A program made the position numbers and the translations under genes. A DNA stretch of 64,000 bases from Luteitalea sp. (lineage in GTDB: Bacteria > Acidobacteriota > Vicinamibacteria > Vicinamibacterales > Vicinamibacteraceae): contig WHTT01000008.1 in assembly GCA_009377605.1 (NCBI GenBank), forward strand, positions 1-64,000. Direction: 5' to 3'. Below are positions 2,824-9,607 of this stretch, piece after piece. Position 1 is the stretch's first letter, and each line of letters begins with the position of its first letter. A model generated the notes under the pieces. That model did not search any database, was not told the origin of the DNA, and was given only the letters and a program-made list of their open reading frames with translations.

Positions 2824-5800
2824 TTACCCCACTCGCCGAGCGCGGAACATCGTCAGGCGATTGCGAACCGACATGCCGTAACGGACTGGTGCCAGCTGCT
2901 TGAAGGCTTCGAACTGACGCTCGGAGATGCCAAGCCGAAGGGCGGTCCGCTTCACGTACTTCGAGACCCGATATGCTCGCTCGAGGCGCGATCGCAGGCC
3001 CACGACGGCCCTTGCCCGATCTGCGGCGAAGTGCGGCGCTGCGCAGAAGCGTCGCATCGGTTCGACGACGCGCGACCAACGAAGCTCCTCCGCCAGCACC
3101 GCGCAATTGGCGGCGGCGGCGGCCCGCGCCCGCTCGTCATCCAGGAGCGCTGCGATGGCGGCGGCGAGCCGGTCGACATCGGCCGGCGGTACGACGCGTC
3201 CCAGACCTCGTGCGACGACCACATCGCTGAAATAGTCACCGGCTGTGCAGACAATGGGCAACCTCGCCCAAATGTAATCCAGCATCCGCGTGCGAAACGA
3301 GAAGTGCGTCTCGAGATGGGCGAGGTGCGTGCTCACACCGAGATCCGCTTCCAATAAGTACGCAGCGCGATCGTGATACGGCACCCAATCGTTGAAGAGC
3401 ACGTGCGTGTCGAGCAGGCCGAGCTCACGAGAGAGCTGGATGCTCGAATCGACGACCTTCATCGGGAGGACGGCTGGATTCGGATGCTTGGTTCCCATGA
3501 AGAAGAGCTTGAGGTCGCGCCGGCCCCCGTCCACGAGCTGCTTGACCGCTCTGATCAGCGTGTGCGGGTCCTGCCAATCGAGCAGCGAGCCGCCCCAGAG
3601 CAGGAGCGTGTCGTCCGGCCCGATTGCGGGGTGCACACCCTTGAGCATGCGGCGAGGCACCTCATCATCCGCAACGCCGCGTGCACGGGCTGCCTCCCGT
3701 TCGAAGCTGTCGGCGTCGAGCTCGGGGATGCCAAACGGCACGACGTCGATGAGCGCTCTCAGTGACGCGTCCGCGGAAATCGTCCTCGGGTTGACGCGCC
3801 CGGCCGTGTGCAACGCGCCGATCCAGAAGTCGCGCTGCTGCTCACTCGCGCAGATGAAGAAATCGCCGATACCGAGCTGATGGTTCTGAACGGCAAGGAT
3901 CTGACGCGCAGCGTGCTCGATCTGAGCCGTGCGCGCCTCCGTGCCTGACCTCATCTCTGCTCCGTGCTGCTCGAGGTGCTCGAGCGTGAATGGGCAGTAG
4001 AGATCGACCACGATAGGAACCAGCAGCGTGCTCAAATATGGGAACTTCGTGAACGCGAAGCCCCAGGCCAGCACGATGTCCGCCTCCTCGGCGAGCTTGC
4101 CCAGGCCGATCGGCCTATTCTCGTCGTACGGCACGATCGAGCAGCGACCGTCGCGGAGTGTCGTTCCGGTCGGCGCAGCAATCGTGACCCGCGCGACCGA
4201 CGCGAGCGCGCGTCCCATCTCGAGCGCACGGATGGCCGGCCCGGACATCTGGTCCTTCAAGGCTTCGTGAGTGACGATGAGGAGGCTGGGCCGGTCGCGG
4301 AGGAAGCGCGGGACTTCGAAGAGCTCGAGGAGTATCTCGTGCAGCTTTCGGTACGACGTGCGGCCGTTGAGCGGCCCCGGCGGTTCGAGAGCGCGCCCGA
4401 GCCGTGGTAGGACAACCGCATCCGGCACGCGGCGGCCGCGTTGCAAGACGGCCCGCTCTTCCGCGATGCGCGGCAGCGCCGAGAGCGCGACACCCGCCGC
4501 CGCAAACGGCACGACGGGAAAATCAGCGATGAGTCGCGCTTCGGGCGCGACCGGTGGGCCCATGTCGTACACCGGTGCGGCCCGTCTGGGCCGGAAGCGG
4601 CTTTGGCCGAGCCATGGACGTAGAGACTCGGCAAACCGCGTACGGCGCACGAGCGCGAGATCCTGTGTGACGCGGCGAGCGGCCAGGAGCAAGGCAGCGG
4701 GCAAGACACGGCGCAGGACGCGAGCCTCATAGTTCTTCAGCACCGTCCAGAGCGCGTTGCGCTGCATCAGGTACTGCTTCTGCCCGTCGGGGTAGCGCCT
4801 CGACGTGCCGCCGTGCCGGTGATACACGATGGCATCCAGCGCCGTGCGAACCTCGTAACCTGCTGCCCGTACGCGCCACCCAAGATCGACGTCGTCGTAA
4901 TAGGCGAAAAAGCTCGGGTCGAAACCGCCAGCCGCCAGGTACGCCCGGCGCGTGATGGCAAACGCGCCGCCATTGGCGAAGAACGTCTCGCCGCCACCCA
5001 GGTACTCGGTCGCATTTGGCTTGCCGTACCGCTCCTGGACGCCAAAGGCTTCGAACGTGCTCGTTCCGCCGACGAAGTCAATGCGCTTGCCGTCCCAGCT
5101 CAACACGCGTGCGGCGATGCACGCGTACTGGTCGTCGAGGGCGTCTATCAGACGGCGCACGGTCTCCGAGTCCACGCGCATGTCGTTGTTGAGGAACAGG
5201 AGGACGTCGCCCGTGGCGGCGTCGACGCCGGCAGCATTGGCGCCGGTGAAGCCTCGGTTCTCTGGAAGCGGAACGAGGCGCACGTCCGGGAACTCCTGTC
5301 CGAGAAGCGCTCGCGATTCGTCCGTCGAACCATTGTCCACACAGATGAGCTCGAGCCGATCCTCTGGGTAGTCGCTCTCGCGAAGTGAGCCGTAGCAGTC
5401 GCGGAGGTACTCGTGGCCATTCCAGTTGACGACAATGACGGAGACGCGCGGACGGAGCGGGCTCTCCGAGGAAGGCGCCGTTGGGACCCGCGCCGCGAGC
5501 GTCTCCCGAGCACGTGTAGGCCCGACCTTTAGGTCGGGCGGACGCAATGTCCGAGATTCGTCGTCGTCACTTTGCTCGCCGTTGTCGGCGTCGCCCGACC
5601 TAAAGGTCGGGCCTACATTGCTGACGCCTGACGCCTGATCCCTGACGCCTGACGCCTCTCCGGCGAGCTCATCCATGAAGCTGTGCAGGGCGAGCAGGGG
5701 AATGGCGGTCGCCGCTTCGTCTTCGGGCCAAGGCATCGACGGGGGCACGCCGCCGATTCGTGCCTGCACTCGTGAAAGAAGTGACTCCCGCCCCCATTGG

Positions 5801-6627
5801 CCACCGAAGCGCAAGTCGCCTGCATCGATACCGGCTGCGCGCCAAGCGGTCAGCAGCGCCGCAGTGGTCTTCGTGGCGACCACCGCTGCCAGCTCATCGC
5901 GCGACATCGTCTTGGCGGCGGTGATCAGCGGATTTCGCCATGTCAGAAAGTCGCGCACGTGGGCCGCGAGAGGATACGCGTCGGGGCCAGTCTGCCGGCC
6001 CATGGGACCGACAGTACGCACGACGATCCCGCGTGCCCGTGCCCGCGCAGCGAGATCGGCCACTACGCCCACCGACCACATGCGCTCATCGAGGCCGCTG
6101 AGGAGGTCGAACGTGTGACGGCTCATCGTCCACAGCGGCGGATCGAGGAGGGCGCGATGGGCAACGCCGGCCACCGTGTCGACGTACGCGTCGCACAGGC
6201 GCCGGATCGGGTCGGCTTGGGCCTCGGCGGTGCCTCTCCGCCGGCCTGCTGTCTGGGGCGCTTGCGCACCAGAAGAGGCGGAATCGTCTAGAGATCCAGA
6301 GCCGGACGCCGGGGACCGATGCGCCGGCGCGAGAACGAGGAGGTGGGGCTCTGCCTTGATCCGTGTTGCAGCCGTGAGCACCGCCAGATCCGCAGCGGTC
6401 CATTCGAACGCCGGATCCGCAAAGAGAAGCCAGGTGCCCCGCGCTTCGCGCGCCGCGTCGTTCATGCGTGCGGCTGCGCCGCGCGGCTGCTGTGGGTCGT
6501 CATGGGCGCGTATGACGTCGACGGTGTGGCCGACGGCCTGCTCGACGAGCGTACGGAGGGCCTCGAGCCGGTCACGGGCCGGCCAGCGCGCAGCGTGGAG
6601 AATGAGCGAGACGGAAGGTCCGGTCAC
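2824..6627 (-). CDS. GT2-GT4 fusion glycosyltransferase (1267 aa)
   Basis: A multidomain cytoplasmic glycosyltransferase likely to add two or more successive sugars to a lipid-linked glycan. Residues 1 to about 320 look like a degenerate GT-A region (VSLILHAARW start). Residues about 393-640 are a classic GT2 domain (RVSVIVVNWNG, ICVDNGSTDES, LFLNNDMRVD, FFAYYDDVDLGWR). Residues about 780-1190 are a GT4-like Rossmann pair (LLIVTHEALKDQMSGPAIR, LLLWGGSLLDWQDP, VVPPADVDRLAAAI). It starts with GTG at 6627. Residues about 323-371 are not ordinary protein: they translate a palindromic repeat plus TGACGCC direct repeats (VGPTFRSG, RPPDLKVGPTR). Before the IS/MITE insertion its start lay about 31 bases after the stop of the DesII-like gene, so the two were probably co-transcribed. 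The donors cannot be told from sequence. Confidence 0.92.
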   Translation of the reverse strand: MTGPSVSLILHAARWPARDRLEALRTLVEQAVGHTVDVIRAHDDPQQPRGAAARMNDAAREARGTWLLFADPAFEWTAADLAVLTAATRIKAEPHLLVLAPAHRSPASGSGSLDDSASSGAQAPQTAGRRRGTAEAQADPIRRLCDAYVDTVAGVAHRALLDPPLWTMSRHTFDLLSGLDERMWSVGVVADLAARARARGIVVRTVGPMGRQTGPDAYPLAAHVRDFLTWRNPLITAAKTMSRDELAAVVATKTTAALLTAWRAAGIDAGDLRFGGQWGRESLLSRVQARIGGVPPSMPWPEDEAATAIPLLALHSFMDELAGEASGVRDQASGVSNVGPTFRSGDADNGEQSDDDESRTLRPPDLKVGPTRARETLAARVPTAPSSESPLRPRVSVIVVNWNGHEYLRDCYGSLRESDYPEDRLELICVDNGSTDESRALLGQEFPDVRLVPLPENRGFTGANAAGVDAATGDVLLFLNNDMRVDSETVRRLIDALDDQYACIAARVLSWDGKRIDFVGGTSTFEAFGVQERYGKPNATEYLGGGETFFANGGAFAITRRAYLAAGGFDPSFFAYYDDVDLGWRVRAAGYEVRTALDAIVYHRHGGTSRRYPDGQKQYLMQRNALWTVLKNYEARVLRRVLPAALLLAARRVTQDLALVRRTRFAESLRPWLGQSRFRPRRAAPVYDMGPPVAPEARLIADFPVVPFAAAGVALSALPRIAEERAVLQRGRRVPDAVVLPRLGRALEPPGPLNGRTSYRKLHEILLELFEVPRFLRDRPSLLIVTHEALKDQMSGPAIRALEMGRALASVARVTIAAPTGTTLRDGRCSIVPYDENRPIGLGKLAEEADIVLAWGFAFTKFPYLSTLLVPIVVDLYCPFTLEHLEQHGAEMRSGTEARTAQIEHAARQILAVQNHQLGIGDFFICASEQQRDFWIGALHTAGRVNPRTISADASLRALIDVVPFGIPELDADSFEREAARARGVADDEVPRRMLKGVHPAIGPDDTLLLWGGSLLDWQDPHTLIRAVKQLVDGGRRDLKLFFMGTKHPNPAVLPMKVVDSSIQLSRELGLLDTHVLFNDWVPYHDRAAYLLEADLGVSTHLAHLETHFSFRTRMLDYIWARLPIVCTAGDYFSDVVVARGLGRVVPPADVDRLAAAIAALLDDERARAAAAANCAVLAEELRWSRVVEPMRRFCAAPHFAADRARAVVGLRSRLERAYRVSKYVKRTALRLGISERQFEAFKQLAPVRYGMSVRNRLTMFRARRVG
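5516..5660. repeat. Palindromic repeat plus TGACGCC direct repeats inside a coding region
   Basis: Arms 5516-5539 and 5593-5616 (GTAGGCCCGACCTTTAGGTC type, each self-palindromic) form a perfect inverted pair. They are followed at 5617-5660 by tandem TGACGCC units. The whole block is translated in frame in the GT fusion protein and falls exactly between its first and second glycosyltransferase domains. It has the same architecture as the intergenic REP pairs but a different arm sequence. Confidence 0.9.
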
Positions 6628-6661
6628 GGCCGCCTGTCGGAAAATGGCCGGGCTCGATCTA

Positions 6662-7853
6662 GTACATCGTCCGATTAGTACTTTATGTTATTCGCAGGCT
6701 CGTGTAACGTGGGTGCCATGCCACGAGTCGCGCCGGCGATCACCCTGAATGCCGTGACAGATACGATGTTGCGTCACCTGGTCCGGTCGCCGTCGACTCC
6801 GCAGGCGCTGGCCCTGCGGGGCCAGATTGTGCTGGCGGCCAGCGAGGGCCGCTCCAACCAACAGATTGCTGCCACGTTGCACATCCCCGAAGTGACCGTC
6901 GGCAAGTGGCGCCGCGCGTTTGCCCTCTCCGGCCTGGACGGCTTGCACGACGCGCCGCGGTCGGGGCGCCCGCCGAAACACAGCGACAAGGTGTGGCAGC
7001 GGATCCAGACGCGCGTCTGTGAGCAACCGGAGGCGTACAGCCGCTGGAGTGTGCGGACGTTGGCCCGGGATCTCGGGTTGCCGCCCACGACGGTGCATGA
7101 GGCGTTGGTGAGCGCCCGGCTGCAGCCCCATCGCGTCCGCACGTTTACCTTCAGTCCCGACTCCGACTTCGAAGCGAAATTGCTCGATCTCGTGGGGCTC
7201 TATCTGCATCCGCCAGACAACGCGATCGTCCTGTGCGTCGATGAAAAATCGGGGATTCAGGCGTTGGACCGGACGCAGCCCGGCCTGCCGCTGCGCGCGA
7301 CGCGTCCCCGGACGTGGACCAATGAATACGTGCGGCATGGCACCCAAGCGCTGCTGGCCGCGCTGGATATCGCCACCGGACGCGTGATTGGGCACGTCAA
7401 AGACCGGCGGACCTCCGCGAACTTTCTCCGCTTTATGAACGACGTCGTCGCAGCGTTTCCGAACCGGGATCTCCACATTATTCTCGACAATCTGAACATC
7501 CATAAGAACGCCGCGGCCCAACGGTGGCTCAAGCGCCATCCGTCGGTGCATTTCCATCACACGCCAACCCATGCGTCGTGGACCAATCTGATCGAGTGCT
7601 TCTTCAGCATCCTGGGAAAGCAGGGCCTCTCCCACCGAGTCGATCGATCAAAAACGTCGCTGCGCGAGTTTCTCATCGAGTATCTGACGACCTACAACGA
7701 GACGAGCGGCCCCTTTACCTGGACGAAAGGGCCAGAGCAGTTGCGAAGCATCATTGAGGCCACGAAAGCGTATCAGGCGGCGCATCCCCGGAAGCGCCGC
7801 CGCACACGCAAAACACGCGGCCAATAACATAAATCACTAATCGGACGATGTAC
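6662..7853 (+). mobile_element. IS630-family insertion sequence (1192 bp, intact)
   Basis: A complete element bounded by terminal inverted repeats: 6662-6695 matches the complement of 7820-7853 at 31 of 34 positions (GTACATCGTCCGATTAGT at both ends). It is flanked by TA dinucleotides at 6660-6661 and 7854-7855, the target duplication expected for IS630/Tc1-mariner elements. It carries one uninterrupted DDE transposase. Intact ORF and near-perfect ends suggest recent arrival. The right-hand TA is shared with the adjoining MITE. Confidence 0.95.
6718..7827 (+). CDS. IS630-family DDE transposase
   Basis: Cut-and-paste transposase of 369 residues. The N-terminal helix-turn-helix region (SNQQIAATLHIPEVTVGKWR) is followed by a second HTH (RDLGLPPTTVHEAL), then the RNase-H-like catalytic core with the three acidic positions of the family in VLCVDEKSGIQ, IILDNLNIHK and WTNLIECFFSIL. 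An upstream ATG at 6685 lies inside the left terminal repeat and would add 11 residues; ATG 6718 (MPRVAPAITL) looks more natural. No frameshift or premature stop is visible, so the element is probably active. Its orientation opposes the flanking biosynthetic genes. Confidence 0.95.
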   Translation: MPRVAPAITLNAVTDTMLRHLVRSPSTPQALALRGQIVLAASEGRSNQQIAATLHIPEVTVGKWRRAFALSGLDGLHDAPRSGRPPKHSDKVWQRIQTRVCEQPEAYSRWSVRTLARDLGLPPTTVHEALVSARLQPHRVRTFTFSPDSDFEAKLLDLVGLYLHPPDNAIVLCVDEKSGIQALDRTQPGLPLRATRPRTWTNEYVRHGTQALLAALDIATGRVIGHVKDRRTSANFLRFMNDVVAAFPNRDLHIILDNLNIHKNAAAQRWLKRHPSVHFHHTPTHASWTNLIECFFSILGKQGLSHRVDRSKTSLREFLIEYLTTYNETSGPFTWTKGPEQLRSIIEATKAYQAAHPRKRRRTRKTRGQ

Positions 7854-7855
7854 TA

Positions 7856-8015
7856 GTGTCCTGGAACAGTGATTCGCGACATAATTCCCGGGCGGGGCAT
7901 CCCGCCTGGCGGCGTTGCTCGTCAGTCACATACGGCCTGTATGCTCCCTCCTCGCGCCTTGCCAGCCGGGCGCCGCGCTCCGGGACTTATGCCACGAATC
8001 ACTGTTCCAGGACAC
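7856..8015. mobile_element. MITE-like non-coding element (160 bp) with TA duplication
   Basis: Termini 7856-7894 and 7977-8015 are inverted repeats of about 38 bases beginning GTGTCCTGGAACAGTGATTC, with 21 perfect outer bases. TA flanks both sides (7854-7855 and 8016-8017). The interior of about 80 bases has no ORF. These are the marks of a miniature element mobilised by an IS630-type transposase, but its ends differ from the neighbouring IS630 copy, so a different transposase would be needed. Confidence 0.88.
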
Positions 8016-9607
8016 TAGCGGTCGAGCCCGGCAGCGGTCGAGTGTACCACTGGCGTCGGTGGAAGCGTTGGATGAGCGATCGTCAGCGCGTGGTCTGGAT
8101 CCGTCACGGCACGTTGCCGAACGGGTCCGAGCTCGAACGGGACGCCGAAGGCCGCATCCGCATCGGCTTGGTTCAACAGCTTGGTGACCACGTGGTCGAA
8201 GGCGTCGAAGAACTTCGTGTCGCCTGGCTCCGGAACGATCGTACGGCCAGACTCGACGAAATCGCGCACGACCTGGTCGAGAGAGGTGGAGGGCGCGACC
8301 CGACCGATCGAGTAGCGGCGAGCCCCAGGACGGTCAAGGAATCCCGCCTCTCGATACAGATAAACGTCGCCAAGCAAGTCGACCACCACGGAGATCTGCG
8401 GGTAGCCGGATGGCCGCATCTCGGCATCACTCACCATCTCCAACGGCTGTCCTGGAGTCCCTTGGCTCAGAGCTTGAAGCGCATAGCCATAATCGATCTG
8501 CAGCTGGCACAGATCGTCACGTGTCCGGCGGTGCTCGAGCTCGCCGAAAATCTCGACGAGGCGCGCCCGCTCGGCGGGGCTCAAGCCCTCGGTGGGCGGC
8601 ACACTGTAGTCCTCACGCAGCGTGAGAAAGTCGATCTGGCGATCGCCACCGGCCTCGCGATTGATCTCGCCGATCAAGTCCGCCAGCCGGAGGACGTCAG
8701 CGGCGTGGCCTGGCAGGACAACGAAGTTGAATCCGAGGCGAAGGGATGAACCGGTGTGGTTACGCAGCCGCAGGACTTCCACGGCGTTGCGTACGACGAG
8801 ATCAAACGCCTTGGGATGTTGCGTGACCCGTGTCGTGCTCTCGTGATCGACGCCGTACAGCGAGATGCGAAGCGTGTGCAGCCGCCACAGACCTTCCTGC
8901 TTCTGCAGCAATTTCGGCGTCAGCATGAAGCCGTTCGTATAGAGCGACAGCTTGGCGCCGTGGTCGGCAGCCACGGCCACGATCTCCCCCAGCCCCGGGT
9001 TGGTCAAGGGCTCGAGGCCGCCGGACACATAGAACCGGTGCGGATCGTCGCCAGGAGCGTCCCGAAGCATGGCGCTGAAGAGCGCATTCCCGTGAGGGAC
9101 GGTATCCGACGCGTACTTGGCATCATGCTGCCTACCGCAGAACGTGCAGAAGAACATGCAAGAGACACCGGGATAGACGCCGACGCGAAGCGGATAACGA
9201 TGCGCCTTCAGTCGCACAGCGCTCACGACGCCCGTCCCGAGCATCGGCAGGATCGTGTTCTGCCAGTACTTGGCGCCCTGGCCATGCTGCGTGAGCAGCG
9301 CCTGCGCCACATCGCTCGTCGAGATCGCCGCGTTCAATTGTCTCAGCGTGTCCCGGTCGACGCCGAGATCGCGCGCCAGAGCAGCCTGGGTTGCAAACGG
9401 ATCACGGGCGAGCGTTTCTATCACCGTGAACGCCAAGCGTGTCCATCGATCGAGGGCTCCGTTGTCGGCCCGTGACCGAACGAGGCCTTGCTCCACGAAT
9501 CCCTGGACGAGATGCTCTCGAAGCGCTGCCGGACCTGCTGATGAGGGGTCGCCGCTCCCGTCACTCGTCAGGTAACGGCGGACGATGAAGTGCTGGCGAT
9601 CGGTCAT
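8015..9607 (-). CDS. desII: DesII-like radical SAM dTDP-aminosugar ammonia-lyase
   Basis: A 530-residue radical SAM protein closely resembling DesII, the enzyme that deaminates dTDP-4-amino-4,6-dideoxyglucose to the 3-keto-4,6-dideoxy sugar in desosamine biosynthesis. Shared features recognised from memory: GAKYWQNTILPM before the core, C150-x3-C154-x2-C157 (VSCMFFCTFC) for the 4Fe-4S cluster, FYVSGGLEPLTNPGLGE, LSLYTNGFMLT, LWRLHTLRISLYG, QIDFLTLREDYS and VVDLLGDVYLYREAGF. The N-terminal 110 residues match DesII's helical region. A good promoter lies at 9716-9745. The TAG stop codon sits exactly at the MITE junction. DesI/DesV-like partners could be the aminotransferases at 14474 and 43456. 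Activity as deaminase rather than dehydrogenase is inferred. Confidence 0.87.
   Translation of the reverse strand: MTDRQHFIVRRYLTSDGSGDPSSAGPAALREHLVQGFVEQGLVRSRADNGALDRWTRLAFTVIETLARDPFATQAALARDLGVDRDTLRQLNAAISTSDVAQALLTQHGQGAKYWQNTILPMLGTGVVSAVRLKAHRYPLRVGVYPGVSCMFFCTFCGRQHDAKYASDTVPHGNALFSAMLRDAPGDDPHRFYVSGGLEPLTNPGLGEIVAVAADHGAKLSLYTNGFMLTPKLLQKQEGLWRLHTLRISLYGVDHESTTRVTQHPKAFDLVVRNAVEVLRLRNHTGSSLRLGFNFVVLPGHAADVLRLADLIGEINREAGGDRQIDFLTLREDYSVPPTEGLSPAERARLVEIFGELEHRRTRDDLCQLQIDYGYALQALSQGTPGQPLEMVSDAEMRPSGYPQISVVVDLLGDVYLYREAGFLDRPGARRYSIGRVAPSTSLDQVVRDFVESGRTIVPEPGDTKFFDAFDHVVTKLLNQADADAAFGVPFELGPVRQRAVTDPDHALTIAHPTLPPTPVVHSTAAGLDR

Follow-up and report, generated by a model that had tools for sequence, protein, structure and literature searches.

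Tandem insertion of an IS630-family element and a MITE at a CTAG stop codon in a Luteitalea genome

IS630 of Shigella sonnei, a member of the IS630-Tc1-mariner superfamily, prefers the TA within CTAG as its target, as stated in the title of Tenzen and Ohtsubo (1991), cited in PMC2170065. ISY100 of Synechocystis transposes in vitro by cut-and-paste with duplication of TA (PMC2170065). RUP of Streptococcus pneumoniae, a MITE of IS630-Spn1, has been proposed to move in trans and is reported to insert into IS elements (PMC2229807, PMC3049150). In this study we analyzed a locus of Luteitalea sp. at which an IS630-family element and a MITE lie side by side at the stop codon of a gene. It is part of the window, by which we mean the whole stretch of 64,000 nucleotides that was analyzed, and has the following features.

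2824-6627, minus strand: glycosyltransferase gene, the next gene downstream of the DesII-like gene and in the same direction
6647-6657, no strand: left arm of the interrupted hairpin, GCCGGGCTCGA
6659-6662, no strand: CTAG at the outer junction of the IS, made up of the target-derived C, the TA duplicate and the G of the element
6660-7855, plus strand: IS630-family insertion sequence, 1196 bp from TA to TA, inverted repeats beginning TAGTACATCGTCCGATTAGT
6718-7827 (ORF start possibly 6685), plus strand: intact IS630 transposase with a DD(35)E motif
7853-7856, no strand: CTAG common to the right end of the IS and the left end of the MITE
7854-8017, no strand: MITE, 164 bp from TA to TA, inverted repeats TAGTGTCCTGGAACAGTGATTC
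7889-7982, no strand: MITE core of 94 bp, common to MITEs with other ends
8015-8018, no strand: CTAG at the outer MITE junction, its complement containing the TAG stop of the DesII-like gene
8015-9607, minus strand: gene for a DesII-like radical SAM protein, its stop codon being the target (TIGR04426 rSAM_desII, 4.5e-132)
8022-8032, no strand: right arm of the interrupted hairpin, TCGAGCCCGGC

Judged from its sequence, the larger element is a member of the IS630 family, with a DDE transposase, terminal inverted repeats with a TA duplication, and a CTAG target. The inverted repeats (6659-6695/7820-7856) are 37 nt long and 92% identical. The transposase matches Pfam DDE_3 (6.1e-21) and NCBIfam NF033545 (3.3e-68, 230 bits against a cut-off of 100), and its catalytic D-D-(35)-E residues are D175, D257 and E293. 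The smaller element has the properties of a MITE: it is short (164 bp), lacks a transposase gene, ends in terminal repeats (7853-7910/7961-8018; 58 nt, 81% identical, the outer 22 nt fully so) and is multicopy. Eight further full or nearly full copies are present in the genome, and matches occur in 66 of 162 genomes of the order. Searches of plasmids, phages and viral contigs returned no copy of this MITE.

The region 6640-8040 contains three CTAGs, at 6659-6662, 7853-7856 and 8015-8018, which bound the two elements, and the IS (6660-7855) and the MITE (7854-8017) have one TA in common. A preliminary description had placed both elements at a single CTAG that was regenerated at each junction and had kept the stop codon intact; our coordinates agree on all three points, and the TAG of the minus-strand DesII-like ORF lies in the CTAG at 8015-8018. 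The DesII-like ORF scores 441.1 bits against TIGR04426, slightly below the cut-off of 450. Its stop would have been about 30 bp from the glycosyltransferase gene before the insertions and is now 1.39 kb away.

We are confident that this arrangement arose by two independent cut-and-paste insertions into CTAG, made by two different IS630-type systems, with a surrounding hairpin that was incidental. Each transposase would insert its element into the TA within CTAG and duplicate the TA. Just inside its TAs, each element has G as its first and C as its last base. Every insertion therefore restores CTAG on either side, and the second element could use the CTAG bordering the first as its target. Because the target CTAG is the stop of the DesII-like gene, the protein is left whole. 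The hairpin around CTAG would have played no part in this and is now split by the insertions. The stack is an ordinary tandem insertion by element types already known, and stacking follows in the ordinary way when insertion recreates the target that it uses. Exact adjacency of two elements is nevertheless rare: we found one similar junction elsewhere in the genome, a count that is a lower bound, as the junction pattern used undercounts stacks and was off by one at the IS/MITE junction of the window. This further junction, CAGCCCACTAGTGGGCTG (L018, G000:C120:5699-5716), has 14 bp left over from a second end placed after a whole MITE. At another locus (L024, G000:C38:23662-23671), CTAGTACTAG immediately precedes a TAGTGTCC MITE end. 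This 10-mer, which is found in 3 places in the genome, looks like the excision footprint (TA-GT-AC-TA) of a TAGTAC-ended IS630 once stacked there, and it might also be due to chance.

We analyzed the target sites of 68 other MITE copies taken from this genome and the order, 67 of them with sufficient flank. The left TA was preceded by C in 61 of the 67, and the right TA was followed by G in 65. Where a copy deviates from CTAG, the outer base is changed and the inner G or C is kept, except in a few with a mutated TA. That only the outer base varies fits duplication of TA, with the G and C being the terminal bases of the element itself. CTAG lies at either end of all 16 IS630 elements of the order with recognised ends, and likewise of one on contig C103 of this genome (17/17). 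In the genome, a further five ends belonging to the same TIR class also all have C ahead of TA. The CTAG preference put forward earlier for IS630, and the CTAG bias expected at other copies, are thus both borne out. CTAG is scarce, its observed/expected ratio being 0.49 for this genome and 0.29 for relatives.

The location at a stop codon is not a one-off but a family-wide tendency of the MITE, at about twice the frequency for background CTAGs. Using a home-made codon log-odds classifier trained on long ORFs of these genomes, we compared MITE sites outside this genome with CTAGs from eight MITE-carrying genomes. Gene stops accounted for 30 of 56 MITE sites and 23 of 88 background CTAGs (odds ratio 3.3, p = 0.0013), and for 30/42 versus 23/53 when gene-interior sites were left out (p = 0.007). 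With the strictest threshold the effect was weaker, 24 of 56 MITE sites and 20 of 88 background CTAGs being stops (p = 0.015). An earlier version of this comparison (p down to 7e-9) was discarded for overstating the effect; its background, mostly from this genome, has fewer stop CTAGs, hence the larger difference. Among sampled gene ends at MITE stop sites, 8 of 10 had a Pfam domain, and most of these domains reach or approach the end of the profile, indicating that most sampled ends are natural C-termini. Full-length IS630 elements, with 4 of 14 at stops, showed no clear bias.

The enrichment is probably due to the scarcity of CTAG in these GC-rich genomes, the fairly common occurrence of the remaining CTAGs at gene ends of the form C-TAG and the loss of insertions that break genes, with selection as the presumed cause. 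More generally, a scarce four-base target that often coincides with stop codons allows insertion without breaking genes. It is improbable that gene ends are actively favoured by the transposition machinery itself, over and above CTAG and selection, as might happen via transcription termination or ribosome release. Such a preference would account for the excess of stops over other non-interior CTAGs noted above, but this excess is modest and, under stricter gene calls, reaches only p = 0.052, selection is expected to remove intergenic insertions upstream of genes as well, and the full IS630 copies do not clearly share it.

The flanks of the stack, joined at one TA, form GCCGGGCTCGA-TCTAGCGG-TCGAGCCCGGC, a perfect 11-bp stem enclosing CTAG in its loop, with an RNA folding energy of -24.7 kcal/mol. 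The sequence with both elements excised and one TA kept reads GCCGGGCTCGATCTAGCGGTCGAGCCCGGC, and its complement includes the TAG stop of the DesII-like gene. The loop had been described as TAGC, which is correct for the four central bases when the T-G and C-G pairs are included in the stem, whereas the perfect stem leaves a loop of 8 nt. A scan of 462 kb of this genome yielded 15 perfect hairpins with stems of at least 11 bp and a loop of 3-12. None of the others carries CTAG in its loop, and so the half-arms, now 1.36 kb apart, very probably belonged to one interrupted sequence. Hence, the IS and the MITE very probably interrupted a single ancestral sequence, which we infer from the arms. 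The hairpin was also considered as a repeated element, and its exact stem was found nowhere else in the genome. No known RNA family was detected in the region.

We searched close relatives for the empty site and found none. The only one carrying the gene was the Luteitalea sp. MAG G001 (L068), whose DesII-like protein is 77% identical. The DNA beyond its gene is unrelated and cannot be aligned, so that this genome speaks neither for nor against the empty site. The gene of G001 extends to a TAG within a different palindrome, GGCGCGGCTTTAGCCGCGCC. REP-like palindromic repeats, centred on CCTTTAGG or GCTTTAGCC and bordered by GTAGG/CCTAC, are present in the window (5515-5625) and at L237:13088-13149 and L068:6591-6720, and two MITE copies (L011 and L015) adjoin palindromes that end in CCTAC.

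The hairpin at the target is a coincidence, one among about 80 sites, and a role for it as a target is not supported. The preliminary description implied a hairpin bias at other copies as well, and this part of it failed: none of 67 other MITE sites and 13 testable IS630 sites had a hairpin comparable to the 11 bp of the window. The longest flank stem was 5 bp at the MITE sites (mean 2.96 bp versus 3.29 bp for shuffled flank pairs) and 6 bp at the IS630 sites (2.92 versus 3.33 bp shuffled), and unlike those of a hairpin-targeting insertion sequence, the sites do not lie in palindromes. It is thus very improbable that the hairpin attracted the transposases, a TA in the loop of an extruded palindrome being preferred and the stop codon being incidental. 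Although the empty site is the single CTAG-loop hairpin in the 462 kb, pairing at other copies stays below the shuffled means, and 0 of 80 comparable sites puts the true rate probably below about 4%.

The two elements differ in their ends, TAGTACATCGTCCG for the window IS and TAGTGTCCTGGAAC for the MITE, and their terminal repeats diverge beyond the first four bases (TAGTACATCG versus TAGTGTCCTG). Autonomous IS630 elements with ends matching the MITE were found at three loci: on contig C103 of the same genome (L196), with ends TAGTGTCCTGACCGCGTGGTTCGCG..CACTA; at L184 in another genome of the order, with ends TAGTGTCCTGTCTCAGTGGTTCGTGA, to be compared with the MITE variant TAGTGTCCTGTCTCAGTGATTCGCGA; and at L177. 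The match with the C103 and L184 elements places the MITE with that subfamily. Most likely, then, the MITE was moved by an IS630 subfamily with TAGTGTCC ends, one member of which is in the same genome, and not by the neighbouring IS. That the MITE derives from the adjoining IS630 by internal deletion, or was mobilised by it, is hardly credible, for adjacency, duplication of TA by both and the common location in CTAG are set against terminal repeats that differ after four bases and against IS630s that bear the MITE-type ends, one of them in this genome.

Assuming two independent insertions into CTAG by two systems, the sequences bear on their order, which the preliminary description had left undecided. 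We agree with that assessment and add one comparison. The end of the window IS was found again at another contig end, identical over 54 bp, and the MITE matches its closest other copy at 94%, so the IS perhaps arrived second. This weakly suggests that the MITE inserted first. Contigs C4, C36, C44, C63 and C102 of the genome terminate 54 bp within IS630 copies; several near-identical IS copies were therefore probably collapsed in the assembly.

The core of the MITE is shared with MITEs that have other ends. In this genome it also occurs inside MITEs with TAGTGGGCTG ends, which target CTAG, and inside MITEs that have TTA or TAA as flanks and GGG or GGA at the start of their ends. Further end types are found in other genomes, among them GGTTTTCGG arms on copies of the core alone, and ends that start with TAGCAGCC. 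Overall, the core goes with five or more kinds of ends and with two kinds of flanking duplication (TA in CTAG; TTA/TAA) and is found in several classes (L017-L027, L216-L235, L325-L345); a sample of 396 genomes from across the phylum, other classes included, contained it in 30. Its islands GCATCCCG, GCGTTGCTC and TCGCGCCT hardly vary among 124 copies. In this genome, cores of the first two end types are 88.9% alike, compared with 87.1% within the first type, while left arms are 48.9% alike between these types and 71.4% within the first. The cores are thus alike across types although the arms are not, which is most simply read as an exchange, either of ends or of cores. Tentatively, and with less than even expectation on our part, the core of about 80-94 bp might have been passed between ends of different transposase types (several IS630 subfamilies and TTA/TAA elements) and kept by a function of its own, the CTAG rule offering a safe haven at stop codons in CTAG-poor genomes. 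The conserved core poses the question of what maintains an internal sequence while the ends change.

Compared with the known systems, the window elements resemble IS630 of Shigella sonnei in the DDE transposase, the TA duplication and the CTAG preference; they differ in belonging to other subfamilies with other ends and in their host, a Luteitalea relative. For ISY100, the available part of PMC2170065 scores in vitro insertions as TA and does not state a CTAG rule. RUP, likened here by description and not by sequence, is small like the window MITE, with IS630-type ends and insertion at TA. Unlike RUP, the window MITE targets CTAG, often at stop codons, and its core is found in MITEs with other ends.
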